A stretch of DNA of 34,722 bases from a virus. Of the stretch, positions 6,074 through 34,722 are shown one piece after another. Below the pieces are notes generated by a model. That model was not told the origin of the DNA and ran no database searches. It saw nothing but the letters and a program-made list of their open reading frames with translations. The stretch is from the IMG/VR virus record IMGVR_UViG_3300042516_006280, positions 1-34,722 of that record; one strand, written 5' to 3'. A program made the translations under genes and the position numbers. How positions within the stretch are numbered: position 1 is the first letter of the stretch; the number at the start of each line of letters is the position of its first letter.

Positions 6074-6496
6074 ATGACTAAGCAAGAGCTTATTGATCTT
6101 TTAAACAACGATCTTAAGAATGAATGGAAGCATCATAATTTTTATTTACATAATGCCAGCACTCTTACGGGCTTGCTTTCAATAGAATATAAAGAGTTTT
6201 TGTTAAAGCAGGCTGAAGGTGAAATGCATCATGTGACTCAATGGTCAGACATGATAAAAGGCTTGGGTGGAATTCCTACAAAAATTTGCAATGAATTTCC
6301 AACATTATCATCCCTAGGGGAAATTCTTAATTATGCTTTATCAATGGAAGAAGAAGTGTTAGTTAATTACGTCAAAAGAATAGAAGATGCCGAACAATTA
6401 GGCGGCGTAGATGGATATTGGGTGACCATATTTCTTGAAAACCAAATACAAGACAGCAGACAAGACAGAGATGAAATACTAAAGTTTTTAAGTTAA
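6074..6496 (+). CDS. Ferritin-like diiron/iron-binding protein
   Basis: This 140-residue, all-helical protein fits a four-helix ferritin-like bundle. Candidate metal ligands are E17 (helix A, NEWKHH), E50 and H53 (an ExxH in EGEMHHV, helix B), E92-E94 (helix C) and E122 with D127 (helix D). This matches the bacterioferritin/rubrerythrin arrangement better than Dps. The likely role is iron or oxidative-stress handling in the infected cell, but a virion role cannot be excluded. The ATG follows the M28 stop by two bases. Its last nine bases overlap the end of the convergent gene at 6488-7207. Confidence 0.75.
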   Translation: MTKQELIDLLNNDLKNEWKHHNFYLHNASTLTGLLSIEYKEFLLKQAEGEMHHVTQWSDMIKGLGGIPTKICNEFPTLSSLGEILNYALSMEEEVLVNYVKRIEDAEQLGGVDGYWVTIFLENQIQDSRQDRDEILKFLS

Positions 6497-7207
6497 TGTT
6501 GGCGTGGGCGTTGGTAATGTATTTTGATCAACAAACCCGAAACAAACTGTGCAGTAAGTTTCACTCACAGTATAATTAAATGTTACGCTACTTACTGTTC
6601 CGTCTATTCTAATGATATTAAATCCTTCTTCGCCTGTAAACTGATTATATTGAGTGGCGTTTGCTGGATTTTGATATGTAGTATCTCTGCTCCAAATTGG
6701 AGTAAATGGCGTTGAAACCTGAACGGGAACAGCAAGTCCTGGTTGACCGACACTTGCAAATGCAACCAAAGCATCTGTAATAGGACTGCTGAAAGTGGCA
6801 GTAAATGTACCAGATTGGGTATTCATTATTTGAATTCCATCAAGTGGCACACCATTCTCTGCGGGAAAAGAAGTAGCAGAATACATTCCGGAGTGTTCGC
6901 CCATTCCGCCACCGCTTTGAATAATCGAAACAGTAATATTATTTTGACCTACTCCGGATGCTGTATTTGATGTAACAGAATTAATAGTCATCCACTGAAA
7001 TCCCGAACTACCAAAAACTTGTGGTGTGGGCGTTGGGGTGGCTGCAGGGGTTGGAGTTGGAGTTGGAGTTGGAGTTGGAGTTGGAGTCAAATTAGAACCA
7101 AAATACAATATTTGATTTGTAATTTTATATAAAGGTCTTTTCCAAAATCTATGCACAACACCCTTGGTTAAATCATAATGACCGTGAGATTTAAAATATT
7201 TTGCCAT
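6488..7207 (-). CDS. Pro-Thr-linker surface/virion protein with beta-sandwich domain
   Basis: This 239-residue protein starts at the ATG at 7207, four bases after the upstream stop. Residues 1-40 are basic and aromatic (KSHGHYDL, RFWKRPLYK) and could be an attachment segment. Residues about 41-62 are a (TP)n linker. Residues 65-228 are a beta-rich domain with FASVGQPGLAVPV and a C-terminal EEGFNIIRIDGTVSSVTF pattern, resembling extracellular beta-sandwich domains found in PEP-CTERM-type bacterial proteins. It ends in another short PTPTPT tail, as if a further module had once followed. I infer a short fibre or surface-decoration protein. It overlaps the ferritin-like gene tail-to-tail. Confidence 0.65.
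   Translation of the reverse strand: MAKYFKSHGHYDLTKGVVHRFWKRPLYKITNQILYFGSNLTPTPTPTPTPTPTPAATPTPTPQVFGSSGFQWMTINSVTSNTASGVGQNNITVSIIQSGGGMGEHSGMYSATSFPAENGVPLDGIQIMNTQSGTFTATFSSPITDALVAFASVGQPGLAVPVQVSTPFTPIWSRDTTYQNPANATQYNQFTGEEGFNIIRIDGTVSSVTFNYTVSETYCTVCFGFVDQNTLPTPTPTLT
7051..7087. repeat. 6-bp tandem repeat coding Thr-Pro
   Basis: About six perfect copies of ggagtt; the minus strand encodes Thr-Pro pairs in the linker of the gene at 6488-7207. The unit sequence differs from the 12-base repeats at the window edges, so this linker arose from a separate expansion. Confidence 0.85.
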
Positions 7208-10425: not shown

Positions 10426-10764
10426 ATGCCCCAAATTATAGACTTTGAAACTATGCTTCCAGAAAAGCTTCTTAACGTTTTTTGTTTTTCAAGAGACGAA
10501 GATTATTTCGTTGATGATAACGATGACGAAGAAGAAGATTACAACGATTACGAAGACGATGATGAGGAGGAAGAGGAAGATGAAGATTGGGGTGGAGAGT
10601 GGAAAGAAGTAGGAGATGACAACGAGGAAGATGAAGATGAAGATGAAGATGAAGATGAAGATGAAGATGAGGATTGGGACGACGAAGATGAAGATGAAGA
10701 TGAAGAAGAATGGGATGATGAGGATGAAGATTGGGACGACGAAGATGAAGATGAAGAATATTGA
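10426..10764 (+). CDS. Extremely acidic Asp/Glu-rich protein
   Basis: This 112-residue protein has a normal-looking first ~28 residues (residues 1-22 include LPEKLLNVFCF). From there it is almost entirely Asp and Glu with spaced Trp (EWDDED, EDWDDED) and no Lys/Arg in the last half. Part is encoded by seven perfect copies of gaagat (10627-10668). The net charge is extremely negative. Possible roles are DNA mimicry, histone-like-protein sequestration or metal binding; none is proven. It has its own promoter-like sequence and is closed by a rho-independent terminator, so it is a separate transcription unit just ahead of the terminase. Confidence 0.75.
   Translation: MPQIIDFETMLPEKLLNVFCFSRDEDYFVDDNDDEEEDYNDYEDDDEEEEEDEDWGGEWKEVGDDNEEDEDEDEDEDEDEDEDWDDEDEDEDEEEWDDEDEDWDDEDEDEEY
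10627..10668. repeat. gaagat x7 microsatellite in coding sequence
   Basis: Seven perfect tandem copies of gaagat encode (Glu-Asp)7 inside the acidic protein. The unit is prone to in-frame length change. Confidence 0.9.
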
Positions 10765-10835: not shown

Positions 10836-12599
10836 ATGGACTTTAAAGAATATTACTCAAAACATTACAATCCCAAGTACTTTACTTTAAATAATTATGA
10901 GCTTGCCATAGATCCAACAGAAACAATGGATGAGGTAAACTTATACGACATGGACAGACAAAAAAAAGAAATTGTAAAATGCGTAAATAGTTTTGAATAT
11001 TTTTGTCACAAGTATATTAAAATTCTTCATCCTGTTAAGGGTTTAATACCATTTGTTCCTTTCAATTACCAGAGAAAAGTAATCAGTGAGTATGAAAACA
11101 ACAGGTTTAATATAATTTCTAAGTTTAGACAGGGCGGCTTGACTACAGTCACTCTTCTTTGGGGATTGTGGAGATGTATGTTTAAATTAGATCAACAAAT
11201 AATGTTGATATCCAAGACCGACAGAGAAGCAACAGACACAGGTGCTATAATAGATAGAGCCGTGGAACATTTGCCATTATGGCTTATTCCAAAAAAAGAC
11301 AAAAAATGGAATGATCATTTAAAAGAATTTTCTGACACAGGCGGCGCTTTAAAATTCTACTCTCCTGAAGCCTCTCGCGGTAAAAGCGTTACATTTTTAA
11401 TAATAGACGAAGCTGCGTTCATACCCGACATGGATAAACATTGGAAAGCTATGTGGCCAGTTCTAAGCACAGGTGGTAGTTGCGTTTTGATTTCTACGGT
11501 TAACGGTATGGGAAATTGGTATGAGCAAACATATAGTGACGCAAAAGAAAAAAGAAATATGTTCAACGTCATAGACTTAGATTACTGGGAACACCCTGAG
11601 TATAACAACGAAAAATGGATAGATGAACAAAAGCGTCAGCTAGGAGAAAAAGGATTTCTGCAAGAAGTTTTAAGAGAGTTTTTAGGCTCTGGAGAAACTT
11701 ATATTCCCTCTAACATAATAAGAGAATTAACCGAGTACACAGGGAAGATGCCTCCCATAAAAAAACTATTCCCAAAGTGGACTAATAAAAATGGAAGGGC
11801 AGCACAATTAGAGACAGACGAGAACAACAAAGGCGCATTATGGATATGGAAAGAACCAAGTGAAAGCAGAGAGTATATAATAGGCGTTGACTGTGCTGAT
11901 GGAATGGGAGAAGACGCAGATAATAGTTGTTTTCAAGTATTAGATATGGAAACACTTGAACAAGTTGCCGAGTTCTATAGTAATCTTATACCTCCTCACT
12001 TATTTGCACAAATAATAAAAGAAGTGGGTGTTTATTACAACACAGCCTTGGTAGTAGTTGAAAATATGGCAGCAGGCGGCGCTGTTTTAAGCTCTCTTCA
12101 GAATACACTATTTTATGAAAATATATTTTTTGAAACTAAGAAGAGTGGGTCACAAACAATAGGGTTCAAAGTCAACAGAATAAACAGACCGATGTTGCTG
12201 GAGGCTATGCAAAGCAGAATTCTTAGTAAATCAATTAGAATAAATAGCGCCAGACTAACCTCTGAGTTACAAACATTTGAATTTAATCCGGTTACTAAGA
12301 GAGCCGAAGCTCAAAAAAGAAAACATGACGATGCGATTTCGGCATTGTGTATATCTTTATTTGTCCGAAATCAAATGATTCAAGATCTACCAGTTGGGGC
12401 AAATGCTCCCCAGGAGGCGGCAAGCATTCTAAGTAATGATGTTTGCCAAGAAATCAAAAGAGAGCTTTTTGATTCAAGATACGAAGATTTTATTGAAGAG
12501 GAAATAAGCACAAGCTCCTCTATCGATGAAGATCAAAAAGAAACTCTCTTTAACCTGTATAGAAAAAACAATAAAATACTAAAAGAGTTTGGATGGTAA
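10836..12599 (+). CDS. terL: Terminase large subunit, T4 gp17-like
   Basis: This 587-residue packaging motor has an N-terminal ATPase and a C-terminal nuclease. The deviant Walker A is SKFRQGGLTT (residues 95-104), where the usual GK(T/S) lysine is Leu and a Lys lies upstream, as in several phage terminases. Walker B is FLIIDEAA (187-194) with D191 and E192. The coupling motif is LISTVNG (218-224). The RNase H-like nuclease centre has D352 (IGVDCADG), E409 (VVVENMAAGG) and D498/D499 (RKHDDAIS). Length is close to T4 gp17. A cryptic terminator lies immediately upstream and two small genes follow at once. No small terminase or portal gene is in the window. This gene is the strongest evidence for a myovirus-type tailed phage. 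Confidence 0.95.
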   Translation: MDFKEYYSKHYNPKYFTLNNYELAIDPTETMDEVNLYDMDRQKKEIVKCVNSFEYFCHKYIKILHPVKGLIPFVPFNYQRKVISEYENNRFNIISKFRQGGLTTVTLLWGLWRCMFKLDQQIMLISKTDREATDTGAIIDRAVEHLPLWLIPKKDKKWNDHLKEFSDTGGALKFYSPEASRGKSVTFLIIDEAAFIPDMDKHWKAMWPVLSTGGSCVLISTVNGMGNWYEQTYSDAKEKRNMFNVIDLDYWEHPEYNNEKWIDEQKRQLGEKGFLQEVLREFLGSGETYIPSNIIRELTEYTGKMPPIKKLFPKWTNKNGRAAQLETDENNKGALWIWKEPSESREYIIGVDCADGMGEDADNSCFQVLDMETLEQVAEFYSNLIPPHLFAQIIKEVGVYYNTALVVVENMAAGGAVLSSLQNTLFYENIFFETKKSGSQTIGFKVNRINRPMLLEAMQSRILSKSIRINSARLTSELQTFEFNPVTKRAEAQKRKHDDAISALCISLFVRNQMIQDLPVGANAPQEAASILSNDVCQEIKRELFDSRYEDFIEEEISTSSSIDEDQKETLFNLYRKNNKILKEFGW

Positions 12600-18390: not shown

Positions 18391-19392
18391 TTAATTGGCA
18401 GCTTCAGACGCCAGCAAACAACCTCTGGCAACACTGAAAAGCGGGTCTTTTGGCTGAATAACTTCACCTATTTTAACAGACAAATCTGCTTCTTTTAAGC
18501 ATTGGGCAAGTAAATCTTTGAAGCCCGGAGGACTTGATGTACCACCAGCAACAACGAAGTCTATCTCTTGATCCGTCTTTACACTCTTAGATGTATTTTG
18601 AAGACCTTTTTTGATGCCTGTTACGGTGTGCTCCAACATTATTCTATATTGGGTCTGTATGGCTCTTTCAACAAGAGTTGTGGCAGGTTTTGTTAAATCT
18701 ATCTTGGTCTTCTCTTTGTTTATAAAGGTTGTACTCTCTCCTGTTGCCTTAGCAGCCATTTTATCAATCCAGTCACCACTATTAACAATAGAAAATGAAA
18801 ACAATGGATTGCCAAACATTGCGAAACAAACATTTACCATACCGCCGCCAAAACTCATTCCAATACCTGTAAAGGCTTTGTGAGATAATTCGGCATAAAT
18901 CAATGCTAATGCTTCGTTTATCGGTCTGGGATCAACTGTATAGCCTTGTTCTGATTTATAAGCCTTGAATATAGCCTCTAATATTTTTCCGTGATAATCA
19001 GCGTCAGTTTCTTCGTTTATGGCATTTGCGGGCACGCAATAATACAATATTTCTTTATCTTTCTCTATCTCACCTATTAAGCTGTGTAGCATAATGCTCA
19101 ATATTTGAAAAGCATCTTTTTCTTTTGGATTAACACAGCCGGATGTCATTGGTCTCTTTAACTCCAGACCACTCATCGTGTACGCCATATTAACAGCAGC
19201 CTCGCCCAAAGCATACGCAACTTTTTCTCTTTCAATAAGAGGAACGCCAGCGCTTTTCATCATGTTAAAAACAAACTTGTTTTCCAAAGGCATTTCTAAA
19301 AAAGCGTTAATTTCTTTTTTATATGCAAAATCATTATTCTCATTTCTTTTACAACAAACGAGCGTGTAAGTTCCACAATCCATTCCAATCAT
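18391..19392 (-). CDS. Actin/Hsp70-superfamily ATPase-like protein
   Basis: This 333-residue protein has the fold's nucleotide-binding signature. Phosphate-1 is MIGMDCGTYT (residues 1-10, D5). A connect-type segment NEALALIYAEL (159-169, E160) matches the Hsp70 NEPTAAALAYG motif. Phosphate-2 is GIGMSFGGGMV (176-186), and the adenosine motif is DFVVAGGTSSPPGF (278-291). In phosphate-2 the usual Asp before the Gly run is Ser180. There is no C-terminal Hsp70 substrate domain. Candidate roles are a phage cytoskeletal filament (positioning or segregation) or a specialised sensor ATPase. Its ATG overlaps the GIY-YIG stop (ATGA). Confidence 0.78.
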   Translation of the reverse strand: MIGMDCGTYTLVCCKRNENNDFAYKKEINAFLEMPLENKFVFNMMKSAGVPLIEREKVAYALGEAAVNMAYTMSGLELKRPMTSGCVNPKEKDAFQILSIMLHSLIGEIEKDKEILYYCVPANAINEETDADYHGKILEAIFKAYKSEQGYTVDPRPINEALALIYAELSHKAFTGIGMSFGGGMVNVCFAMFGNPLFSFSIVNSGDWIDKMAAKATGESTTFINKEKTKIDLTKPATTLVERAIQTQYRIMLEHTVTGIKKGLQNTSKSVKTDQEIDFVVAGGTSSPPGFKDLLAQCLKEADLSVKIGEVIQPKDPLFSVARGCLLASEAAN

Positions 19393-22885: not shown

Positions 22886-24871
22886 CTACTTACAAGGAAC
22901 TATTGCTACGCAATTAAGCTTTTGATCGTCTCCTGTGATCTTGCTTATATCAAGTTGTATTTTAACATCTATTGGTGCCCCCTTATAGACCATTTCTATT
23001 TCTGGCTTCTCAGGCATTAATAATTGAATAGTTGATGGGATATTTCCGTTTATCTCTATAACAGGAGGTATTCCAACAACTTGTATTTGGCTTGGTATCC
23101 CAGAAGCATCTATCTTGATTTCTCTTGGGAAATTATCCGGGATATTCAATCCAATAAATTCTGGAATATCGCTTTTAATCTGTATAATAGTAGGAACACT
23201 TGTTGCGTCTAAAAATATTGATTTTGGTATATCTGCCTCAGAAACAATTTTGATTTCAGATGGAAGTCTTACATCTGGTGCTATTATTTTTATTTGATCT
23301 GGTAGATCTACTTTTTCTATTTTTATGGAAGAAGGTATGTTTGAAGCATCTACTGTTAAAGGAGGAATTTTTGGAGGAACAATATTAATTACAGATGGTA
23401 TTCCCAAACTGTCAACTTCTATTGTAGCGTTCATGGAAGGATTTTCGGAATAGCTCCTACTACCCAGAGCCCCAAGTCCTGGTTCGATAAAGTTCCCGAA
23501 AGAATCTTTGAGAAAACTCACACCAGTGGGACATTGAACCGTGACTATCGCGCTAAGTACTGGGGGCAAGTAGCCACCTCTCGGATTCCCAAACTGGTCC
23601 AAAGCGGGATTTGGTTCACCACCCCAGTCCATTACCATTGTGGGTGTTGTGAAATCTATAATAGATGGTATTTCTTCCATTCCTCGCACAGTTATGATGG
23701 CTGGAATATTCGGAGGCATTCCAATTACACTAATAGTATCTGGTATGCTAAGTCCGTTTGGATAAACATTAATTTTAGATGGTAAGCTAAAACCTCCCAC
23801 AACTTGGATGGGAGATAATTCAATATACGAGTTCAAAGCTCCGTTTATATTTATTTCTATTGGCGATATCCCTATAGAAGGTATATTTATGGGAGTTATT
23901 GATATCGGAGGAATATTAATTGGAGATATTGTTATCCTACTGGGGATATTAATTGGTGATATGCCTATGGTGATAGAAGAAGGAACAGAAGCAATGTTAC
24001 CAACATCCAAACATGGAAATACAATCGGGGGAATGTTATATTTGTTTGGAAGAGGAGAAAAAGGTGTTATTAATATCGGAGGTATGTCAGGTGGAGGCGG
24101 GATGGGAATCTCCAAAGGAGTTATAACATCAACCACAACTGGTTCTATGGAAGCAGTTCTATCAGTAGGAGTGAATGTAACAGAGCACTTATCGTTAAAA
24201 ATTGTTAAAACAGGATCAGGTGTTGAATTTGGAGCGTACGTATGGTTGCCTTGCAACACATTTGTAGTATAATTTCCATCACCAAAATCTAGCCGGAAAC
24301 TTGTAAAAGACCCATTTATCTCCACTAAATACTGAGCAAGTATGCCTGTAGTAAGACTACTTTCAAGTATATTAAAGGTAAAATTTACATCTGGGCATCC
24401 GAAATCATCAAATATGGCAGGTATAGATTGTAAGTTTCTTATTCTCCAATCAAGCGTGGCTTTATCTGTAGAGAAATTATTTCCTATGAACTCCTGTATG
24501 TTTATGACGGCATCCACTATTTGATTATGGTGTTCGGCTATTACAAAACCTCTTATTTTGATGCCGGAATGATTGTATTTTGTTTCCTCTCCACCTAAAT
24601 TACGAATACATTCTTTAAATCTAAAAACCCTTTGCTCGCCGTTTACGATCTTTTTTTCGACACTGTTATAGTAAAATAATTCCCCATCTATGTTAGCAAA
24701 TCCATTATCAGACCATAACTCGTCACCCTCAGATGGTCTTATTTCTATTTCATCTGACCATGGCGCATTATCATTAGCCAATATTGCTTCTGATGTGTTG
24801 AATACGAGAAACAATGTCTCATCAGAGTCATATTTGCTGGGATACAGTGGATTTGGTGGCGGCTTTGTCAA
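22886..24871 (-). CDS. Fibre protein 3: AEHHN adaptor, PKD-like domain, Ile-Pro shaft
   Basis: This 661-residue protein has an N-terminal module (residues 1-150) shared with the next two upstream genes, marked by AEHHN (112-116) and DAVINIQEF. Residues ~163-237 are PKD-like (FRLDFGDG, then HTYAP). From ~250 to 645 the chain is a low-complexity but regular series of short (I/L/V)P..I.I units (for example IPSSIKIE, LPDQIKII, LPSEIKIV, IPSQIQVV), which suggests a fibrous beta-spiral shaft. The C-terminus is short and contains C-V-A-I-V-P-C. It is likely a tail fibre or spike. It is the third of three paralogues in a row. Confidence 0.72.
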   Translation of the reverse strand: MTKPPPNPLYPSKYDSDETLFLVFNTSEAILANDNAPWSDEIEIRPSEGDELWSDNGFANIDGELFYYNSVEKKIVNGEQRVFRFKECIRNLGGEETKYNHSGIKIRGFVIAEHHNQIVDAVINIQEFIGNNFSTDKATLDWRIRNLQSIPAIFDDFGCPDVNFTFNILESSLTTGILAQYLVEINGSFTSFRLDFGDGNYTTNVLQGNHTYAPNSTPDPVLTIFNDKCSVTFTPTDRTASIEPVVVDVITPLEIPIPPPPDIPPILITPFSPLPNKYNIPPIVFPCLDVGNIASVPSSITIGISPINIPSRITISPINIPPISITPINIPSIGISPIEININGALNSYIELSPIQVVGGFSLPSKINVYPNGLSIPDTISVIGMPPNIPAIITVRGMEEIPSIIDFTTPTMVMDWGGEPNPALDQFGNPRGGYLPPVLSAIVTVQCPTGVSFLKDSFGNFIEPGLGALGSRSYSENPSMNATIEVDSLGIPSVINIVPPKIPPLTVDASNIPSSIKIEKVDLPDQIKIIAPDVRLPSEIKIVSEADIPKSIFLDATSVPTIIQIKSDIPEFIGLNIPDNFPREIKIDASGIPSQIQVVGIPPVIEINGNIPSTIQLLMPEKPEIEMVYKGAPIDVKIQLDISKITGDDQKLNCVAIVPCK

Positions 24872-24886
24872 TTCATTTTCCTCGTA

Positions 24887-27802
24887 TTAATATATTGTAG
24901 ATAGCCATTGTTTTTCATCAATATCGCCAGGTCTTCCTCCAAGATATCTAAAAGTTAAATCTATATCATTGAACTTGATAAAGGATTTAGCACTATAGTC
25001 ATAGCTTATATATACATTGTGATCTTCATCTGAAGTTGCTAATAATGTCTGATTTAGATCATCAAAACCAGTTACGGTAGGATCTTGAAGCGATTTAAAA
25101 GACGTAGACCCAACGCCAGGTCCGCCAGTTGACCAAACTCCTGTTGTTGAATTGAATACAGATATAGCACCAGAGTTATTGAATAAAAATATTGCGCTAG
25201 AAAGATTGACTAGTTGACCTTCAGTTTTGGTTGGACCAGAAAGATCGTTTATTTTTTTGATTTCAGAAATTGGATTTGATGTGGTTCCACTTGTTTTATA
25301 AAAGTTTTTAAGTCTGAAGAACTTTCCTTCACCAGAGTTTTGGAGGATGTAGCCAGATCCATCTCTCCAAACCGATCTAGTAAAGCTATGACTATCAGAT
25401 GGTAAAGTGTAATTTTTTATATCTTCCGCTCCATTTTTAAATGAAGTTGAGCTTAGACAATTACTGCTCGAACTATAATTAGACATAGATAAAGAGACGA
25501 CGCTAGTATCTATTTTTGAAACATTTCCATCTCCACAGCTGTTTGCGTTCGTACCGTTTGTTTCATTTTTGTTATTTCCCAAAACAAAATAAATATTATC
25601 ACCAGAGGCTAAGCCTGCCCAACCCCATTGCCTTGATATGCTTGATCCTATTAAAGTGTAGGCAGAATACACATCGTAAAAAGAGCTGTATTTTTTGAAA
25701 AACACCCTTTCATCCAGCACCGGTCTATTTGCAGCTCTTCCCGTAGCCCAAAACATCAAGCCGCCAGAGTTTTTATTGCCTGAACCATAATTATCAGTTT
25801 TGGCAAAACCATTATTTCTTTCAAATTCTCTTATAGATCTGCACTTTTCACTATATGTGTAACAACTATCACAACATTTTATTTCACAATCACAGTTATT
25901 TTCTGTTCCTACGCTTCCTAAAAAACTACTGTTGAATTGTGGAGCTATATCACAAGGAGTATTTAAAGTTTTAAATGTTTCACTTATAAGTCCAAATTCA
26001 TGAGAAATAACTTTATTGGATTTGCCTTTCGTCCATATCCACAAATTTGAATTTTCTATTACATCTATGCTTGATTTAAAATTTGTAATTCTATAGTTTC
26101 CACTATTTGTATCTGTTCTCAAAACTACATCATAGATACCGCCAACACTAAAAGAAGCCGTTGTATAGTTTTGGTTAAGATGAGATAAATCGTCATTTAT
26201 GCCCCATGTATAAGAATTTATTGGATCCGAGGGGTTTTGGCCATTTTTTAAAGATTCTGTAGCGGATATAATCACTTTTGCAAATTTTTGATCCACTACA
26301 GAGCTACTTCCTATTTTTATCACATCCCCTGTGTCTACAGAAAACGAATGAGTTATATTTGTTGGATTGGGGTAATCTACGTTATTTTTAGAAAAAATAG
26401 ACTCATTGTTTTTATAAATCACGGCAGAATTTGAGTTGTTTTCACCATCAGAGTATTCAAAACTTACAAAAACGGTGCCGCTTGCTGTTGCTTTCCATGT
26501 ATATTTTTCTAATCCATCGACATCAAGCAAATCTATCTCAGCCGACCTTGTGAAAGGCTTAGATGGAATCCCCGATCCCAAAAAAGTAATTTTTTCATCA
26601 TTGGAACGATACACCACTAGGTTGTAAGTCGCAACATTGATAGAAATGTAAGTATTTATTGGAGATGTTATTCTAAACAACCTGTTGTTTTTTGAAGATT
26701 CTGAATCGATAATTATCTCCTCACCCAGAAAAGTTTGTGTCAATCCAGCTGTAAACTCCAACTCAGCCTCTGATGGGCAAAAATCTCTTACATTAACTAT
26801 GTTTTTAAGAACACAAGTGTCTGATCCAAAATCGTTAGTGACAGTTAAAGAGACATCGTTGAAGCCAGAGTTTTCATATGTATAAATTAAGCTATCTTGA
26901 TCTAAATTTAAATAAATGGTGAGACCACCGGATTTATCTCCTCCTTCTCCTATTAACAATCTATATTTTGGATTATTTTTTACAGAGGAGTAAGTAATGC
27001 TGAAAGAATCACTGTTTCCAACATCGCTGTAATTAACCCATTCGTCTGTTGATTTTTGTAAAGTGTATATTTCTGGCAAGAAGGTTTGTGTTATTTTTAC
27101 ATCTACCGTTGTTAACATTTCCCCTGTCCCCAAAGTTTTGAAAATAAAGGATTTGCTATAAGCGAAATAATTTTCAGAACCGTAGTTAAAATTCCACTTG
27201 TGTTCTGTTGACCTGCTTGTTCCATCAGTGCCTAATCTGAAACTCAAATCAGTGAATTTAACCACACTTGGTTTCAATCCTATTCTTTTATCAACGCCAA
27301 ACCATGCTTTTGGAGCCAAAACCAAATACCGTAGATAATTAGTTCTTTGCTCAATTGTTCCTTCCAAAGGCTTAACCGACCTTTCGCCTTGTATACCTGC
27401 GAATTTTTCTATGCTTATGACAGCATCCTTCAAAGAATTGTGATGCTCAGCCATTACGTTTTGCGTAATATTTGTTATGTCTTTATATTTTTTAATATCC
27501 TCAAAACCAGGAAGGATATTTAGTCCGCTGAAGTATGCTGTTGTTGAGGAAGTTATTGTTTTTGTTGTATAATAAAAAGATATGGATCTTTGTTTTATTT
27601 CCTCACATTGATCCGTGAGTGTTATTATACCGCCTCCCCGAGATTGATCTGGGAATCTATCTATGGCTTCTGTTGTTCCGTATACATATATCTCTGTAGA
27701 TCCTGGGTTGTAATCTTCTGCTAAAGAGACCCTCAGATAATCATGAACCTCATACAAGTTTTTGTTTGTATCGAATTTTTCTGGGTAGTTGCTGAGGCTC
27801 AT
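24887..27802 (-). CDS. Fibre protein 2: AEHHN adaptor with large beta-rich body
   Basis: At 971 residues this is the largest of the three paralogues. AEHHN is at 118-122, followed by DAVISIEKFAG. Residues 165-350 hold degenerate PKD-like repeats (KWNFNYGS; DVSLTVTNDFGSD). Residues 350-600 are further beta domains (IISATES, SFSVGGIYDVVL). Residues ~633-653 are a cysteine cluster (NCDCEIKCCDSC, then C). The remaining ~320 residues have Kelch-like strand patterns (WGWAGLASGDNIYFVLG, ATSDEDHNVYISYD). There is no signal peptide. It is likely a large tail-fibre, spike or baseplate protein. A seven-base gap separates it from the upstream paralogue. Confidence 0.7.
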   Translation of the reverse strand: MSLSNYPEKFDTNKNLYEVHDYLRVSLAEDYNPGSTEIYVYGTTEAIDRFPDQSRGGGIITLTDQCEEIKQRSISFYYTTKTITSSTTAYFSGLNILPGFEDIKKYKDITNITQNVMAEHHNSLKDAVISIEKFAGIQGERSVKPLEGTIEQRTNYLRYLVLAPKAWFGVDKRIGLKPSVVKFTDLSFRLGTDGTSRSTEHKWNFNYGSENYFAYSKSFIFKTLGTGEMLTTVDVKITQTFLPEIYTLQKSTDEWVNYSDVGNSDSFSITYSSVKNNPKYRLLIGEGGDKSGGLTIYLNLDQDSLIYTYENSGFNDVSLTVTNDFGSDTCVLKNIVNVRDFCPSEAELEFTAGLTQTFLGEEIIIDSESSKNNRLFRITSPINTYISINVATYNLVVYRSNDEKITFLGSGIPSKPFTRSAEIDLLDVDGLEKYTWKATASGTVFVSFEYSDGENNSNSAVIYKNNESIFSKNNVDYPNPTNITHSFSVDTGDVIKIGSSSVVDQKFAKVIISATESLKNGQNPSDPINSYTWGINDDLSHLNQNYTTASFSVGGIYDVVLRTDTNSGNYRITNFKSSIDVIENSNLWIWTKGKSNKVISHEFGLISETFKTLNTPCDIAPQFNSSFLGSVGTENNCDCEIKCCDSCYTYSEKCRSIREFERNNGFAKTDNYGSGNKNSGGLMFWATGRAANRPVLDERVFFKKYSSFYDVYSAYTLIGSSISRQWGWAGLASGDNIYFVLGNNKNETNGTNANSCGDGNVSKIDTSVVSLSMSNYSSSSNCLSSTSFKNGAEDIKNYTLPSDSHSFTRSVWRDGSGYILQNSGEGKFFRLKNFYKTSGTTSNPISEIKKINDLSGPTKTEGQLVNLSSAIFLFNNSGAISVFNSTTGVWSTGGPGVGSTSFKSLQDPTVTGFDDLNQTLLATSDEDHNVYISYDYSAKSFIKFNDIDLTFRYLGGRPGDIDEKQWLSTIY

Positions 27803-27809
27803 TTTTTTC

Positions 27810-29249
27810 CTAATCTATTGTTATTTCTTCTTTCAAAAAAGCTTTTTTAATCGTTTGGTTGTTAAACAAAACGAATACAGAGGGATTGTAAACAGAAGAT
27901 GGATAATTTATTTTATAAATAAAATTTATGCTATGTATGTTAGGGTCTTTCTCTGTATAATTTCTGACTATTTCCGGTTTCCAAAAAGTTCTTGTTTGAT
28001 TGCTGGAATTAGTAGTAGTGAAATAGCTACCGATAATCGCCCCAACCTTTCCCTCTGTTGTGCCTTGAGGTAAATCAAAATTTGTGCCATCACCTTTAGA
28101 TAGTTCAATTATTTCACCTGTATCATCTATGTAAGATATTTTTCCAATCTTAGTTTTTGTTTTTCCGTTTTCATAATAAGCAAATATTACATGTTGGTTG
28201 ATGTAGGGTGAAGTTAAAAAATTTCTGATATCATCTTTGAATGTGAACTTATCACCATTTACGCTGCAAGAGTGAAACTTTTTAATTATACATCCTTCAC
28301 CATTAAAATTCCAATATCTTTCTTTTACATCCCCATCTGTCTGATCAACAAACTCAAAAATAGTTGGATTTTCACCTATGGGCAATGGTGGCTCATCATC
28401 TGCAGGGATACTAAGAGAAAAAGAAAAGCCGCTTGTCATGTTTGGAGTTGTTGTCAAAACATCAAATCCGTCTGGGGAGTTTTTAACATAAAAGAAAGGA
28501 GCTCTTAATGTATTATCAACTATAATATAATTATTTTTTTTAACTATTCCTTGCCCTCCTAATACACTAACAACAACCAACTCAACAGAATATGATCCCT
28601 CTTTTGTGTAAGTGTGAACTGGATTTTTATCAGTAGATGTTGTTCCATCCCCAAAATCCCAAAAACATCTGATCAGGGGTCCATTCAACTCATTTGGCGC
28701 CATACCTAGGCTGAAGTTTTGAAAAGAAACCGTAAGGGGAGCGCCACCGGAAACCGGATAAGCTCTGAACAATGGTTTGGGAGTAAGAAATTTATTTTCT
28801 TGAGTTTTCAATATACCATGTAGAGAGATATCATTAGGGTTAGATTTCAGCCCTAAATTAATTTCTGTTTTTATGATAGCATCTTTTACAGCGTTGTGAT
28901 GTTCTGCACTTACAGAGTTGGACACAGTGCTTCCTAAGCTCCATTGGTTCTGTCTTGATCCTGCAAATCCACGAACCAAATTGTTAAAAGTATTTCCTGT
29001 TCTTGACGCGTAGTAAATTAATTCCCCAGAATTAAATTTTTTATTTGTAATTCTTATTAATCCTTGAAGAGGAAAGCCAGAAGCATCTTCTACAATAATT
29101 TTTTTTGCTGAATATCCTACACTTTGCTTCAAAGTAGTTGTTGCGTTATTTCTAACTTCATATAAACTATCTTTGTTATCAACAGCTTCTGGGTATAGAG
29201 AAAGATCTCCTGTTGTATATCCGTTGTTTAAACTATCAATTCTTGCCAT
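27810..29249 (-). CDS. Fibre protein 1: AEHHN adaptor with PKD domain
   Basis: I choose the ATG at 29249 (479 residues), which has AGGTG six bases upstream; a GTG three codons earlier is the alternative. The N-terminal module has YPE..D...LYEV, GLIRI, an IYYASR strand, and AEHHN (115-119) with KDAIIKTE. Residues ~160-250 are a clear PKD domain (FWDFGDGTTSTDKNPVHTYTKEGSYSVEL). The C-terminal half is beta-rich, ending in a QTIKKAFLKEEITID segment. PKD domains act as rigid spacers or glycan-binding units. It overlaps the coiled-coil gene's stop by 14 bases, so translation is coupled. Confidence 0.75.
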   Translation of the reverse strand: MARIDSLNNGYTTGDLSLYPEAVDNKDSLYEVRNNATTTLKQSVGYSAKKIIVEDASGFPLQGLIRITNKKFNSGELIYYASRTGNTFNNLVRGFAGSRQNQWSLGSTVSNSVSAEHHNAVKDAIIKTEINLGLKSNPNDISLHGILKTQENKFLTPKPLFRAYPVSGGAPLTVSFQNFSLGMAPNELNGPLIRCFWDFGDGTTSTDKNPVHTYTKEGSYSVELVVVSVLGGQGIVKKNNYIIVDNTLRAPFFYVKNSPDGFDVLTTTPNMTSGFSFSLSIPADDEPPLPIGENPTIFEFVDQTDGDVKERYWNFNGEGCIIKKFHSCSVNGDKFTFKDDIRNFLTSPYINQHVIFAYYENGKTKTKIGKISYIDDTGEIIELSKGDGTNFDLPQGTTEGKVGAIIGSYFTTTNSSNQTRTFWKPEIVRNYTEKDPNIHSINFIYKINYPSSVYNPSVFVLFNNQTIKKAFLKEEITID

Positions 29250-30009: not shown

Positions 30010-30354
30010 TTAGATAATCTGCTGCTCGGTAACCTTAATAAACAAGATCCATTTTGTTTGAGATTCATCCCAATAATAATTTTGCCCGTCGTTTGGATAA
30101 GCTATTGGGCTTTCCCACAAACAAGTCTGTTCGTTTAAAATCCAAGAATTAAAAGGCTTGGGGGGAATAAAAGCATCTAATACTCTATCGTATTTTCCGC
30201 CAATAGAAGCATAGTTTTTTCTTATTCTATTTGTATAACTGGTTTGTATCCAATTTTGTGGATCTCCCAAAACACCACTATTTATAAAATCTTGTTCTGC
30301 GACTATTACTCTTAAAATATTTCCATCGCTATCAATTTCTGCAAAATGACTCAT
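30010..30354 (-). CDS. Small protein of a family common in aquatic T4-like phages
   Basis: This 114-residue protein has the recognisable form (M)(S/A)HFAEID..G.(I/V)LRVIV near the start, then GDPQNWIQTSY, R(K)NYA.IG..YD..LDAFI.P.P, and a C-terminal (Y)YWDESQT.W. Such small proteins are frequent next to tail-fibre genes in cyanophages and related aquatic phages; I recall them as hypothetical structural or fibre-associated proteins. Its ATG overlaps the adhesin stop (ATGA), so it is coupled to it. Confidence 0.75.
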   Translation of the reverse strand: MSHFAEIDSDGNILRVIVAEQDFINSGVLGDPQNWIQTSYTNRIRKNYASIGGKYDRVLDAFIPPKPFNSWILNEQTCLWESPIAYPNDGQNYYWDESQTKWILFIKVTEQQII

Positions 30355-33300
30355 GTTAAATACCTCACTATTACTATACCCGAACCACCACGGGCAAGAC
30401 CTCCACCGCCACCTCCTCTATTAATCACACCAGCAGTACCAGGGTTGGCATTTGTATTTCCAGCCCCACCGCCGCCGACACTGCCAGCCCCAGCAACGTG
30501 CTCTCCATTGCCACCACCGCCACCAGAATATGGAGTATTAACTCCACTTATTGATGAATATTTACCAATTCCGCCTGCTCCTCCAACTCCTTGATTATTT
30601 CCAGTTCCGGCACCACCTACGCCACCAATGCCACCACCGCCTCCACCTGCAATCCAATTACCCCATCTATTATTTCCTCCTATTCTACCCTGCCCCAAAG
30701 TACCTGCCCCGGCACAACACCCTCCCTTGAAACCGGCGCCACCACCAGAGCCACCTCGATTACCGGAATTATTACCACCTTCGCCATCTCCGCCGCCACC
30801 GCCACCATATGATCTTATTGTGTCAAACACAGAATCTCCACCATTGCTAGACAGAGCACCACCCGCACCAACTACAACAGGAACTGTTTTGTTGCTGTTA
30901 AATGTGTACGTAGAAGAAATAAATCCACCACCCGCTCCGCCGCCAGCAGCTCTTAAATAGCCACCTCCACCGCCGCCACCCACAACCAGCACTTCTATAG
31001 TAAAGGGTTGCGTTGTAAAAACCTGTAGAGTTCCACTTGTTTTAAATGTGTGAATAGTGTAATTTCCCGAAGTTGTTACTACTCCGCCAACGGCATACGA
31101 TCTTGCTGAAGGAGTCGCCGTTGGAGTTACGGTTGGCGTAGGCTCAGTAGAGTTATATAGAGTGTAAGTAATATTAGGATAATATGCACACCTGTTTGAT
31201 CCTCCTAACAAAGAAGTTAAATCTGAGTAGCTTCCCCCTGTGTCTACTATTATGTTTTTAGAATTATTTTTAATAAAATTGCTTGCTATAGATTGATTTA
31301 TGTTCCTATTTCCAGCTGCGTAAGAAGCTATCATTCCACAAACTTGGGGGCTTGCCATACTTGTCCCACTTAGTTTGGTCACGCAATATTTGGTGGGTTT
31401 GTTTATACTCCTAACGTCATATGTGCTTGGATAACCATTTACAAAAGTATGTGTTGTTGAAGCTATCATATCTCCTTGAGAATAAACATCCACCCTTGGA
31501 CCTGCATTGCTCCAAATATTTTTTGATTCTATGGATGATCTGCTTAAAGATCCAACATTGATAACTCCTGGACACCCTGATGGGGACGATCCTCTGTGGT
31601 AATACAAATCTCCATAAAGATATTCACTATAATTTATTGGATCAACACCATCGGGAGCATTTACATCTAATCCAATTATTATTGCACTCAATTTATTATC
31701 ATAATCAACCCCGCCAGGAATATCTATTTTGGTAGAGTTGTTTCCAGCTGCAGCCACAACAACAACTCCAGAATTAATCATGTCTGTCAAATCAGCATCC
31801 ATTGTAGCATTTCTACTTCCTATATCTAAAAATCTTTTCCCTTGATTTATCACTCCAGATAAGGTGTAAGATATTATTCCAAAATTTTCTAATTGTTGTT
31901 TCGAAAACCCTCCCCCGTTAGTAAACACAACTCCTGGAGCTGAAGTATATCCTGAGCCCTGATTGGTTATGGTTACTCCCACTATCTTTCCTTGATTGGC
32001 TCCTGTCCCCATTACAGCCCTTGCTTCAACATTGTTTCCTGTTATAACTCCATCTATTATTTGATTTCCTCTATTGAAACCAATGTTTGGAACTGATGTG
32101 TATCCTTCTCCGCAAAACCAAGTCCATCTAACAGTGTCTACTACATATCTTTCAAAGATTACTCCATTGATATTATCTTGAACAATTTTTAGTGTCGCGT
32201 TTTCACTGTAATCTACAAAAATATCTCCGTTTCTAATTGTGCTATAATCACCATCTAAGTGATTTTCTTCAAATTGAAGCAAAGAAATAGAAGCATTGAC
32301 TGCTGGATTGCCACCACCCAAAACAACATTTGGTAAAACTTCATAACTACTGCTGGTGTTGACCACTATGTTCTTAACCACCCCAGATTTTATTTTACAT
32401 GTAGCCTTTGCTGTTCTTCCTGCATTTGGTGGAGGGGGAAAGGTTATTGTTGGGGCAACAGTGTATCCACTTCCTCTATTGGTCATGTTTATGTAGTATA
32501 ACCCGGTGCCTTCAACCGGAAAAATACTTGCTGTACCTACTGCTCTTTGCCCGCCTGTGGGTGGGGCACTAAATGTTATTGGAACCCACTCACCTTCATT
32601 GTATCCTTCTCCAACATCGGTTATTGTTATCTCATATATAGTTCCATTTCCAATGTAAGCTGTAGCTTTTGTTTTACCGCCACCATAAAATGAAATAACT
32701 GGTTCGTTTGTATAATTCGAGCCTTGATTTGTAACTGTTGAAGAAACAACACGCCCAGAACTAACTGTGGTGGTTGCTGCAGCTCCGGAATAATTTCTTG
32801 GGGCGGTGTATTTTACGCCTCTGTGGGTAACATCAACTATGTTTCTTGTGTCAATTCCGTATAATCCGTTCCCATAACTATGATTTGTTATAGTAGGATT
32901 TTTTGTTCCTTTTTTAATATTTATTGGTTTGTTTTCATGCCAAACTTTAATTGCGTTTAAATATAAATCATGTGGTGCTTCCGGATCGTCAATTCCAAAG
33001 TAGGTCATTTGTCCATGATATGGAGATATATTATATATATTTGATTTTGGCGCCCAACCTTGAGTGTTACCTGCTATTATTCCTCCAACATGAGCTCCAT
33101 GATTATTACTATCAGTTAAAGGTGGGTTGTCTACATCTACGTATGGCTCATAAAAATAAGTAGTTCCTGCTGGGAAATCTTCTGTTGGCGCTCCATTTGG
33201 GTATAAAACATCAAACCAATTTATTTGATTTATTCGGGTGCCTCCCGATCCATCTTTTTTAATTGCAAATTCTGGGTTGTTTGGATCCATGTGACCATCA

Positions 33301-33665
33301 ACAACAACAACATCGACATCCTCCCCAGATGGAATGTTGTGAATCGACGCTACTGCATCTGCCGGCAAAGCTTGTATTCCTAAGTTTTTTTCCTCTCCAT
33401 AATCACGATCTGGATTTACAATATATGGCTTTATTTTAAATGGAATTTTTTGTTGAATTGCTTCTAATCTTGTGTCTTTTTCAAGATTTTTTGCCTCTTC
33501 TTCCGTTAATTTAAAGGTTAAAACTCTTCTTTGTATGTTCGTATTATTTAAAGCTAAACAAGCTCTAGAAGGGATGTTTCCACCAACACCCATTCTCATA
33601 TCTTCTATGAGCGACTCTTTATCTTTTATATCTTTTATTACTATATTGTATATTTTTTCTTTCAT
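30351..33665 (-). CDS. Subtilisin-like protease fused to glycine-rich adhesin
   Basis: I place the start at the ATG at 33665 (TAATG coupling to the upstream stop; AGGA upstream), giving 1104 residues; an ATG four codons earlier is possible. The S8 subtilase catalytic set is D123 (VVVVDGHMD), H189 (NHGAHVGG), oxyanion N642 (AAAGNN) and S769 (LSGTSMASPQ). A beta-rich insertion of ~290 residues (about 295-590) splits the catalytic domain between H189 and N642. It is built of NxGSGYT.(A/E)P.(I/V).F repeats. After a Pro-Thr linker (840-855) the last ~210 residues are a glycine-rich domain (GGGGGGG, then GGSGIVIVRY) of the type found in phage tip adhesins. No signal peptide is present. It is probably a virion-borne protease and receptor-binding unit in one chain. 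Confidence 0.85.
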   Translation of the reverse strand: MKEKIYNIVIKDIKDKESLIEDMRMGVGGNIPSRACLALNNTNIQRRVLTFKLTEEEAKNLEKDTRLEAIQQKIPFKIKPYIVNPDRDYGEEKNLGIQALPADAVASIHNIPSGEDVDVVVVDGHMDPNNPEFAIKKDGSGGTRINQINWFDVLYPNGAPTEDFPAGTTYFYEPYVDVDNPPLTDSNNHGAHVGGIIAGNTQGWAPKSNIYNISPYHGQMTYFGIDDPEAPHDLYLNAIKVWHENKPINIKKGTKNPTITNHSYGNGLYGIDTRNIVDVTHRGVKYTAPRNYSGAAATTTVSSGRVVSSTVTNQGSNYTNEPVISFYGGGKTKATAYIGNGTIYEITITDVGEGYNEGEWVPITFSAPPTGGQRAVGTASIFPVEGTGLYYINMTNRGSGYTVAPTITFPPPPNAGRTAKATCKIKSGVVKNIVVNTSSSYEVLPNVVLGGGNPAVNASISLLQFEENHLDGDYSTIRNGDIFVDYSENATLKIVQDNINGVIFERYVVDTVRWTWFCGEGYTSVPNIGFNRGNQIIDGVITGNNVEARAVMGTGANQGKIVGVTITNQGSGYTSAPGVVFTNGGGFSKQQLENFGIISYTLSGVINQGKRFLDIGSRNATMDADLTDMINSGVVVVAAAGNNSTKIDIPGGVDYDNKLSAIIIGLDVNAPDGVDPINYSEYLYGDLYYHRGSSPSGCPGVINVGSLSRSSIESKNIWSNAGPRVDVYSQGDMIASTTHTFVNGYPSTYDVRSINKPTKYCVTKLSGTSMASPQVCGMIASYAAGNRNINQSIASNFIKNNSKNIIVDTGGSYSDLTSLLGGSNRCAYYPNITYTLYNSTEPTPTVTPTATPSARSYAVGGVVTTSGNYTIHTFKTSGTLQVFTTQPFTIEVLVVGGGGGGGYLRAAGGGAGGGFISSTYTFNSNKTVPVVVGAGGALSSNGGDSVFDTIRSYGGGGGGDGEGGNNSGNRGGSGGGAGFKGGCCAGAGTLGQGRIGGNNRWGNWIAGGGGGGIGGVGGAGTGNNQGVGGAGGIGKYSSISGVNTPYSGGGGGNGEHVAGAGSVGGGGAGNTNANPGTAGVINRGGGGGGLARGGSGIVIVRYLT

Positions 33666-34722
33666 TATCCCCCCCATCCTAAAATATTATTTTCATTTAT
33701 TGCTCTCAACAAGCCCCAGTTTACATAATTTCTATCAATAATATTTGATCTACTATAGTTAGATATAGAATTTGCATTAAAGTTATCGAAAACGCACCCA
33801 GGACCAAGAGATCTTAATCCCAAGCCACCGTACCCAGGTATAGTCTCATCTGAAGCATAGGCTACTTGTATATCATTAAAATATAAAGTCAATGAATTTC
33901 CCATAACTTTAAAAGCAAGAACACCTACGACCAACCCAGGAACAGTAGTGTTTGATGAATTTATTACCGAAGAATTTAACAACAGCCAAGATCCATTGTT
34001 TACCCATATTTGTCCGTAATACACAGATCCAATTCTTGCAATCATTCCCAAATACATATAAGCATCTCCGTATATATTTGAGGTGTTTGCTGTATATCTT
34101 GCTATTATGCCTCCCCCACAGCCAGGCATGGATCCTATCGTGGGTAATACAGAATTACTGGCATCCAAATAACAGCTAACGTATGAATCTTTTTCGATCA
34201 CGCCTTTTAACTCCATTATAGAAATAGAAGCATCTGAAGAAACAGACGAACTGTTGAATATAGAAAAATTACCTAACCTCTCAACCCAGTATTTTGATAT
34301 ATATGTGCTGTTTGGTCTATTAAAATCATCATAGAACGGCAAGACAACATAGGCTTCTTCCGTGGCAGTTGGTGTGACTGTTGGTGTTCTTGTTGGTGTA
34401 GCAGTCGGTGTTCTTGTTGGTGTAGCAGTTAGGATTGAAGTATTGGTTGGTGTGACTGTTGGTGTTCTTGTTGGTGTAGCAGTCGGTGTTCTTGTTGGTG
34501 TAGCAGTCGGTGTTCTTGTTGGTGTAGCAGTTAGGATTGAAGTATTGGTTGGTGTGACTGTTGGTGTTCTTGTTGGTGTAGCAGTCGGTGTTCTTGTTGG
34601 TGTAGCAGTCGGTGTTCTTGTTGGTGTAGCAGTTAGGATTGAAGTATTGGTTGGTGTGACTGTTGGTGTTCTTGTTGGTGTAGCAGTCGGTGTTCTTGTT
34701 GGTGTAGCAGTCGGTGTTCTTG
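33665..34722 (-). CDS. Partial fibre protein: Pro-Thr stalk plus LamG-like domain
   Basis: The frame is open through the right edge; only the last ~352 codons are visible. A TTG at 34342 opens the globular domain but is internal, because the Pro-Thr repeat upstream is in the same frame. The visible part has a ([10 protein letters not shown])n stalk (encoded 34371-34722), then a ~225-residue beta-sandwich domain beginning [11 protein letters not shown] and ending [11 protein letters not shown], a LamG/concanavalin-like pattern that often binds glycans. It precedes the subtilase-adhesin with TAATG coupling. I infer a host-surface-binding protein. The N-terminus is outside the window. Confidence 0.75.
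34371..34722. repeat. Nested 24-bp/102-bp tandem repeat coding a Pro-Thr stalk
   Basis: A higher-order repeat of 102 bases (34 residues) starts at 34445, 34547 and 34649 (measured at ggttggtgtgactg). The first unit at the left end is 78 bases, exactly one 24-base subunit shorter. Inside each, 24-base units (tgttcttgttggtgtagcagtcgg) encode eight residues with the motif TPTRTPTA. All lengths are multiples of three. The array continues beyond the window. Confidence 0.95.

Follow-up and report, generated by a model that had tools for sequence, protein, structure and literature searches.

Three tandem tail-fibre-like genes, named A, B and C in reading order, lie on a 34.7 kb virus record, the whole of which is referred to here as the window, and raise the question of what a phage gains from joining one N-terminal module to three different ends. 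The sequence-only reading of the locus had proposed a single attachment module given three working ends that dock to equivalent sites on a baseplate. To our knowledge, hardly anything is annotated in the tail tips of huge phages. We consider it probable that, after an ancient triplication, the three proteins became specialised parts of the virion in a lineage of huge phages with contractile tails, and that each docks by its module at a place of its own on the baseplate periphery. Virion location, stoichiometry, oligomeric state and receptor contact of the three proteins are throughout what we infer.

The genes had been described as consecutive minus-strand genes of 479, 971 and 661 residues, and a check of the open reading frames (ORFs) reproduced coordinates and lengths exactly (Table 1). 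They almost abut, with gaps of 7 and 15 bp, and belong to a co-directional run of window ORFs. The 277 aa gene downstream of C follows it in nearly all compared loci and, given its weak MptE-like/sialyltransferase similarity, is a possible candidate for a fibre-modifying enzyme.

Table 1. Positions of genes A, B and C, their predicted domains and their flanking genes in the window
Feature	Length or residues	Position	Strand	Evidence or remark
Downstream neighbour, conserved	277 aa	22043..22876	(-)	Weak MptE-like/sialyltransferase similarity
Gene C, TTG start	661 aa	22886..24871	(-)	ORF
C N-terminal module	6-155	24407..24856	(-)	hhalign to A and B profiles
C PKD-like domain	~156-240	24152..24406	(-)	FRLDFGDG...HTY pattern; PF18911 15 bits, under cut-off
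C Ile-Pro repeat shaft, spacing mostly 10-13 residues	296-620	23012..23986	(-)	Motif count vs shuffles
C C-terminal segment, strongly conserved	551-661	22889..23221	(-)	Identity 98-100% in close relatives, 45-62% over all
Gene B, ATG start	971 aa	24887..27802	(-)	ORF
B N-terminal module	3-165	27308..27796	(-)	Alignment, hhalign; AF2 strand/helix order as in A
B first PKD-like domain, with insertion	166-340	26783..27307	(-)	hhalign to A over module and PKD; PF00801 15.9 bits, under cut-off
B second PKD-like domain	~521-582	26057..26242	(-)	PF18911 26.3 bits, cut-off 27
B propeller, predicted six-bladed, Kelch-type	583-971	24890..26056	(-)	AF2; VIA-align Z 18.1
B cysteine cluster, inserted within propeller region		25838..25894	(-)	Orthologue alignment
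Gene A, ATG start	479 aa	27810..29249	(-)	ORF; kept in all loci with room
A N-terminal module: β-domain, AEHHN helix, second helix	16-156	28782..29204	(-)	Alignments; AF2; fold match 8jov_1 Z 11.0
A PKD domain 1	157-247	28509..28781	(-)	PF18911 48.3 bits, cut-off 27; 4aqo Z 12.6, rmsd 1.6
A second PKD-like domain	296-479	27813..28364	(-)	W-F-DG...H-Y-G pattern, orthologue alignment
Upstream neighbour, conserved, probably helical from its sequence	224 aa	29236..29910	(-)	14 bp overlap with start of A; PHROG 1409, function-unknown class

The module consists of a small β-domain followed by two helices, the first of which carries AEHHN, and it starts within the first 16 residues of all three proteins, so that it is N-terminal with the fibre body behind it. 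The AEHHN motif is indeed present in each protein (A115-119, B118-122, C112-116). Pairwise blastp of the window proteins yielded E values of 7e-10 (A-B), 2e-6 (A-C) and 8e-7 (B-C), pairwise Smith-Waterman alignments of the first 175 residues scored 11-17 s.d. above 1000 shuffles, and hhalign comparisons of the class profiles, built from one orthologue alignment per gene, gave E values of 2.9e-31, 1.5e-21 and 6.5e-17 over 197-220 columns. As far as sequence comparison goes, common descent of the three N-terminal modules is thus shown. The sequence-only reading had let the proteins align over their first ~150 residues and had called the distal parts unrelated. Similarity far beyond chance was confirmed, but the homologous stretch really extends over ~200-240 residues because a PKD-like domain comes after the module in A, B and C, and it is only past this shared domain that the proteins become unrelated. 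The class profiles align over ~200-240 residues, which rules out that the shared region is a short motif only. Neither did different folds emerge in the comparison of AF2 models, which covers A and B: the two, each modelled from its own orthologues, have the same order of strands and then two helices (strands 37-110, helices 115-131 and 143-155 in the A module). In both models the stretch of the AEHHN helix is predicted with low confidence (pLDDT ~35-50).

A Pfam search with the module matched no family, and a search of PDB sequences with the module profile gave none at E<1. The statement that the module belongs to no named family thus holds for Pfam names, but relatives exist, namely the fibre N-termini of GP4 and Lessievirus and, among baseplate proteins of cyanophages, PHROGs 4406 and 2885. 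Residues 28-154 of the A model match chain 1 of PDB entry 8JOV with Z 11.0 over 99 residues, the superposition being loose (rmsd 5.3). The protein, labelled 'putative tail fiber protein', comes from the Ralstonia podophage GP4; it is present as 18 chains, and the structure covers 116 of its 439 residues, those of the N-terminal part. The phage collection searched yielded neither GP4 nor close relatives of it, and a profile of the fibre N-termini of Lessievirus and related phages stood in for GP4 itself. Aligned with this GP4-type profile by hhalign, the A module gave E 4.4e-5 at a probability of 69% (reversed control, E 0.31), and the B and C module profiles alone gave E 0.05 and 0.35, which is not significant. 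The case that the A module corresponds to the GP4 docking domain is good by predicted fold and fair by sequence, and the relation of B and C to that domain, like their docking role, would follow from A by transitivity. The likeness concerns the resolved N-terminal domain, whereas GP4 is a short-tailed phage, its aligned relatives lack AEHHN and the remaining fibre is unrelated.

The β-domain of the module is similar also to a domain inserted in a tail tube protein (9n71, Z 9.2) and is therefore not fibre-specific. It is found as well in giant gp7-position virion proteins of cyanophages (PHROG 4406 and 2885; HMM E 5e-8 and 8e-7), which are encoded directly after gp25 and gp6, and seems to be an insertion in their gp7/gpI-like region. 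Unlike in A, B and C, it lies inside a far longer protein, the AEHHN helix is not conserved and there is no three-gene array. At two cyanophage loci, L005 (7791-8690) and L004 (7806-8705), the β-domain appears as an insertion in the N-terminal region of the giant protein. The Foldseek list of viral matches for A, mostly of low TM-score for this multi-domain model, serves as a pointer only, to fibres and cyanophage wedge proteins. That the module is a bacterial or prophage domain was considered and rejected, as none of 80 loci from a scan of genome contigs contains the module by HMM; these loci resemble the query chiefly over the PKD region.

The window stops inside a variable cassette, short of gp25, and the baseplate context comes from relatives, the neighbourhood having been read in LR756511, L029 and L280, the last being the closest relative, which lies on the 144 kb L007 contig. 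The upstream order in L280 is OB-fold spike (PF04717, also seen in LR756511), gp25 (PF04965), gp6-like, gp7/gpI-like (PF09684), variable cassette and A. At all three loci the gp6-like wedge protein upstream of A is PHROG 219/10646, and the gp7-like gene is followed by a ~157 aa protein, the variable cassette and the 224 aa protein before A-B-C is reached. The protein at the gp7/gpI position carries a Tail_P2_I domain and has ~1050-1080 aa, being shorter in LR756511. One gp25 gene is present in each of the 19 long records (125-595 kb), ~10 kb from A and with A downstream. The variable slot upstream of A encodes a subtilase and a glycine-rich domain in the window (30351-33677, minus strand), and BP74_N with a glycine-rich domain plus a 624 aa protein in L280 (3115-7517).

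This neighbourhood bears on whether the proximity to baseplate genes might be accidental and A, B and C might decorate another part of the virion, such as neck or whisker fibres, sheath, tail tube or capsid. Such a location would agree with the resemblance of the β-domain to the tail tube insertion domain, with PKD domains being general surface domains and with the further genes between gp7 and A. It is, however, difficult to reconcile with spike, gp25, gp6 and gp7-like genes preceding A in relatives and gp25 lying near A in every long record, with the cyanophage domain relatives being baseplate proteins at the gp7 position, and with a fold match that is a tail fibre, so that we regard it as very unlikely.

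Scans of IMG/VR were collapsed to 105 distinct loci, including LR756511 and the window. The order A-B-C on one strand was found in 92 of the 92 distinct loci holding all three genes; the remaining 13 have only one or two of them (AB, A or C) and are probably cut by contig ends. Exactly three module genes are present in all 19 long records, two of which give four module matches due to an insertion that splits the module of C. The same three genes occur, at ~33-37% identity to those of the window, in LR756511.1, an uncultured huge phage of 595 kb. In a maximum-likelihood tree of 90 module sequences including the distant LR756511, A, B and C form one clade each (support 100/99, 99/98 and 99/95, with the bootstrap short of full convergence). 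Module identity between classes is 23-29% both within and between genomes (A-B, 0.285 in the same genome vs 0.282 between genomes), and ~56% within a class across genomes. The similar identities within and between genomes, together with one clade per class, indicate that the triplication is older than the lineage and that there was no visible exchange; on this sequence evidence, the triplication is ancient and its copies are fixed, with no sign of gene conversion. The equivalent sites proposed earlier do not agree with modules that split once, long ago, into classes now 23-29% identical and each conserved across genomes. The old split and the conservation within classes rather point to three different, dedicated positions.

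The strict constancy of the array might also reflect one obligate mixed A:B:C trimer per baseplate site, i.e. a three-armed organ with a PKD arm, a propeller and, as third arm, a repeat shaft whose length depends on the lineage. Exactly three adjacent genes, one per class and never lost or multiplied in the 92 loci and 19 long records, would be expected of such a complex, the modules are similar in length and contain a conserved helix that may form a coiled coil, and the 18 chains in which the related GP4 fibre N-terminus was deposited are compatible with six trimers. The known relatives seem to be homotrimers, however, and three dedicated homotrimers, as in T4 gp10, gp11 and gp12, explain the same pattern (PMC3004832), which makes a mixed trimer quite unlikely.

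Behind the modules the three proteins differ in architecture. The PF18911 cut-off (27 bits) was not reached in B (26.3) or C (15), where 'PKD-like' is based on the alignment with A. The second PKD-like domain of A is split by an insertion in close relatives of the window. The propeller model of B, which is of moderate confidence, best matches Kelch domains (KBTBD4; Z 18.1, 258 residues, rmsd 3.3), and a sequence search of B for Kelch families gave none at E<0.1, so that it is Kelch-like in fold only. The cysteine cluster noticed earlier in B is present in the window, but the insertion that carries it is confined to close relatives and is not a family feature. Propellers on baseplate-peripheral proteins are known from phi11 Gp45 and phiKZ gp131C (PMC4901313); these are five- and seven-bladed, whereas the one predicted for B is six-bladed, Kelch-like and without a Kelch sequence signature.

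C of the window contains 16 Ile-Pro motifs, as compared to 4.1 expected in shuffles (shuffle maximum 10). Across 58 C orthologues the count ranges from 3 to 106 and exceeds all shuffles in 50 of these. The extreme length variant is gene C of L064 with 2048 aa, in which 79 spacings between the 106 motifs measure exactly 11 residues and the units resemble IPTEITITPVT.

Along the window proteins, B and C are highly conserved towards either end and less so in between, the C-terminal segments being about as conserved as the modules. Receptor-binding tips usually diverge most, and this pattern would argue for a structural or capping role of the conserved ends of B and C. This distribution is relevant to the possibility that A, B and C act as host-range fibres able to replace one another, with one docking module, equivalent sites and receptor-binding tips swapped between phages. 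A module common to all three and differing ends would suit this idea, as would the tandem tail fibre paralogues already known from Bcep22-like podophages, where 3-4 adjacent fibre genes share a single GP4-type N-terminal domain and have different remainders (Lessievirus: DC1, BcepMigl; PMC9144972). The modules of these Lessievirus arrays are, however, 55-64% identical, i.e. recent copies, gene number varies and the tail is that of a podophage, whereas A-B-C always comprises three genes with modules 23-29% identical and is accompanied by contractile-tail genes. Moreover, no locus departs from the set in gene number or order or in how modules and ends are combined, the modules are class-specific throughout the lineage, variation in B and C is internal, and the variable gene cassette sits upstream of A instead. 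Interchangeable fibres are therefore unlikely, and conserved ends with variable middles fit specialised components of the baseplate periphery better than host-range tips that are exchanged. For host-range variation, the variable slot 5' of A is a stronger candidate than A-B-C.

The part of the earlier proposal that stands is one attachment module with three ends, consistent with the shared module, its position downstream of gp25/gp6/gp7-like genes, the GP4 fibre fold match and three C-terminal architectures. As specialised baseplate-periphery proteins, A, B and C would each be docked by the module, β-domain and AEHHN helices together, probably as a homotrimer and at different, dedicated places beside the gp25/gp6/gp7-type wedges, with the PKD-like domain behind the module as a neck. 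Past this neck, A would have a short PKD arm that may clamp or relay, the Kelch-type β-propeller of B could bind a surface glycan or a further component of the baseplate, and the shaft of 11-residue Ile-Pro repeats in C would reach out to a phage-dependent length with the conserved cap at its end.

This arrangement resembles T4 gp10, gp11 and gp12, which are encoded by sequential genes on one transcript, are judged to derive from one primordial fold and are each specialised at the baseplate periphery, where they form trimers with 18 copies each (PMC3004832). Both sets are three sequential paralogous genes near wedge genes. In T4, however, the shared core is recognised by structure only, and the T4 description contains no PKD neck, propeller or Ile-Pro repeats. 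The T4 proteins are absent from the fold matches of the A model, an absence that does not count against them; as there is no sequence or fold match to them, we do not claim membership in the T4 family.

Tandem fibre paralogues (Bcep22-like), baseplate propellers (phi11, phiKZ) and the triplication scheme (T4) were already known. What is new, as far as our searches show, is that A-B-C forms a universal and ancient triad in a lineage of huge phages, that this triad is linked to the docking domains of podophage fibres, and that the shaft of 11-residue repeats varies ~thirty-fold in copy number. The A-B-C genes are not described in the consulted passages of the moraphage and megaphage papers (PMC12619734, PMC9723777). 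The rule gp25, gp6, gp7-like, then A-B-C can serve to find and annotate a baseplate-periphery set in a broad huge-phage lineage, and the triad would be a second, sequence-traceable case of the triplication scheme inferred for T4 gp10/gp11/gp12. It also links the fibre docking domains of podophages to baseplate parts of myophages, and the Ile-Pro shaft, with ~3 to 106 copies, offers a natural length series for studies of fibre length.

Other genes of the window include a large terminase (10836-12599, plus strand) that is nearest to that of LR756511 (51% identity), followed by Microcystis and Flavobacterium phages at ~31-32%. A conserved 333 aa protein that appears actin/ParM-like by eye (18391-19392, minus strand) is found in many related huge-phage loci. 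A 112 aa ORF (10426-10764, plus strand) consists mostly of Asp and Glu, and two large predicted proteins (419-2704 and 6488-7207, both on the minus strand) contain Thr-Pro repeats (TPTPTP / TPTATPEP).
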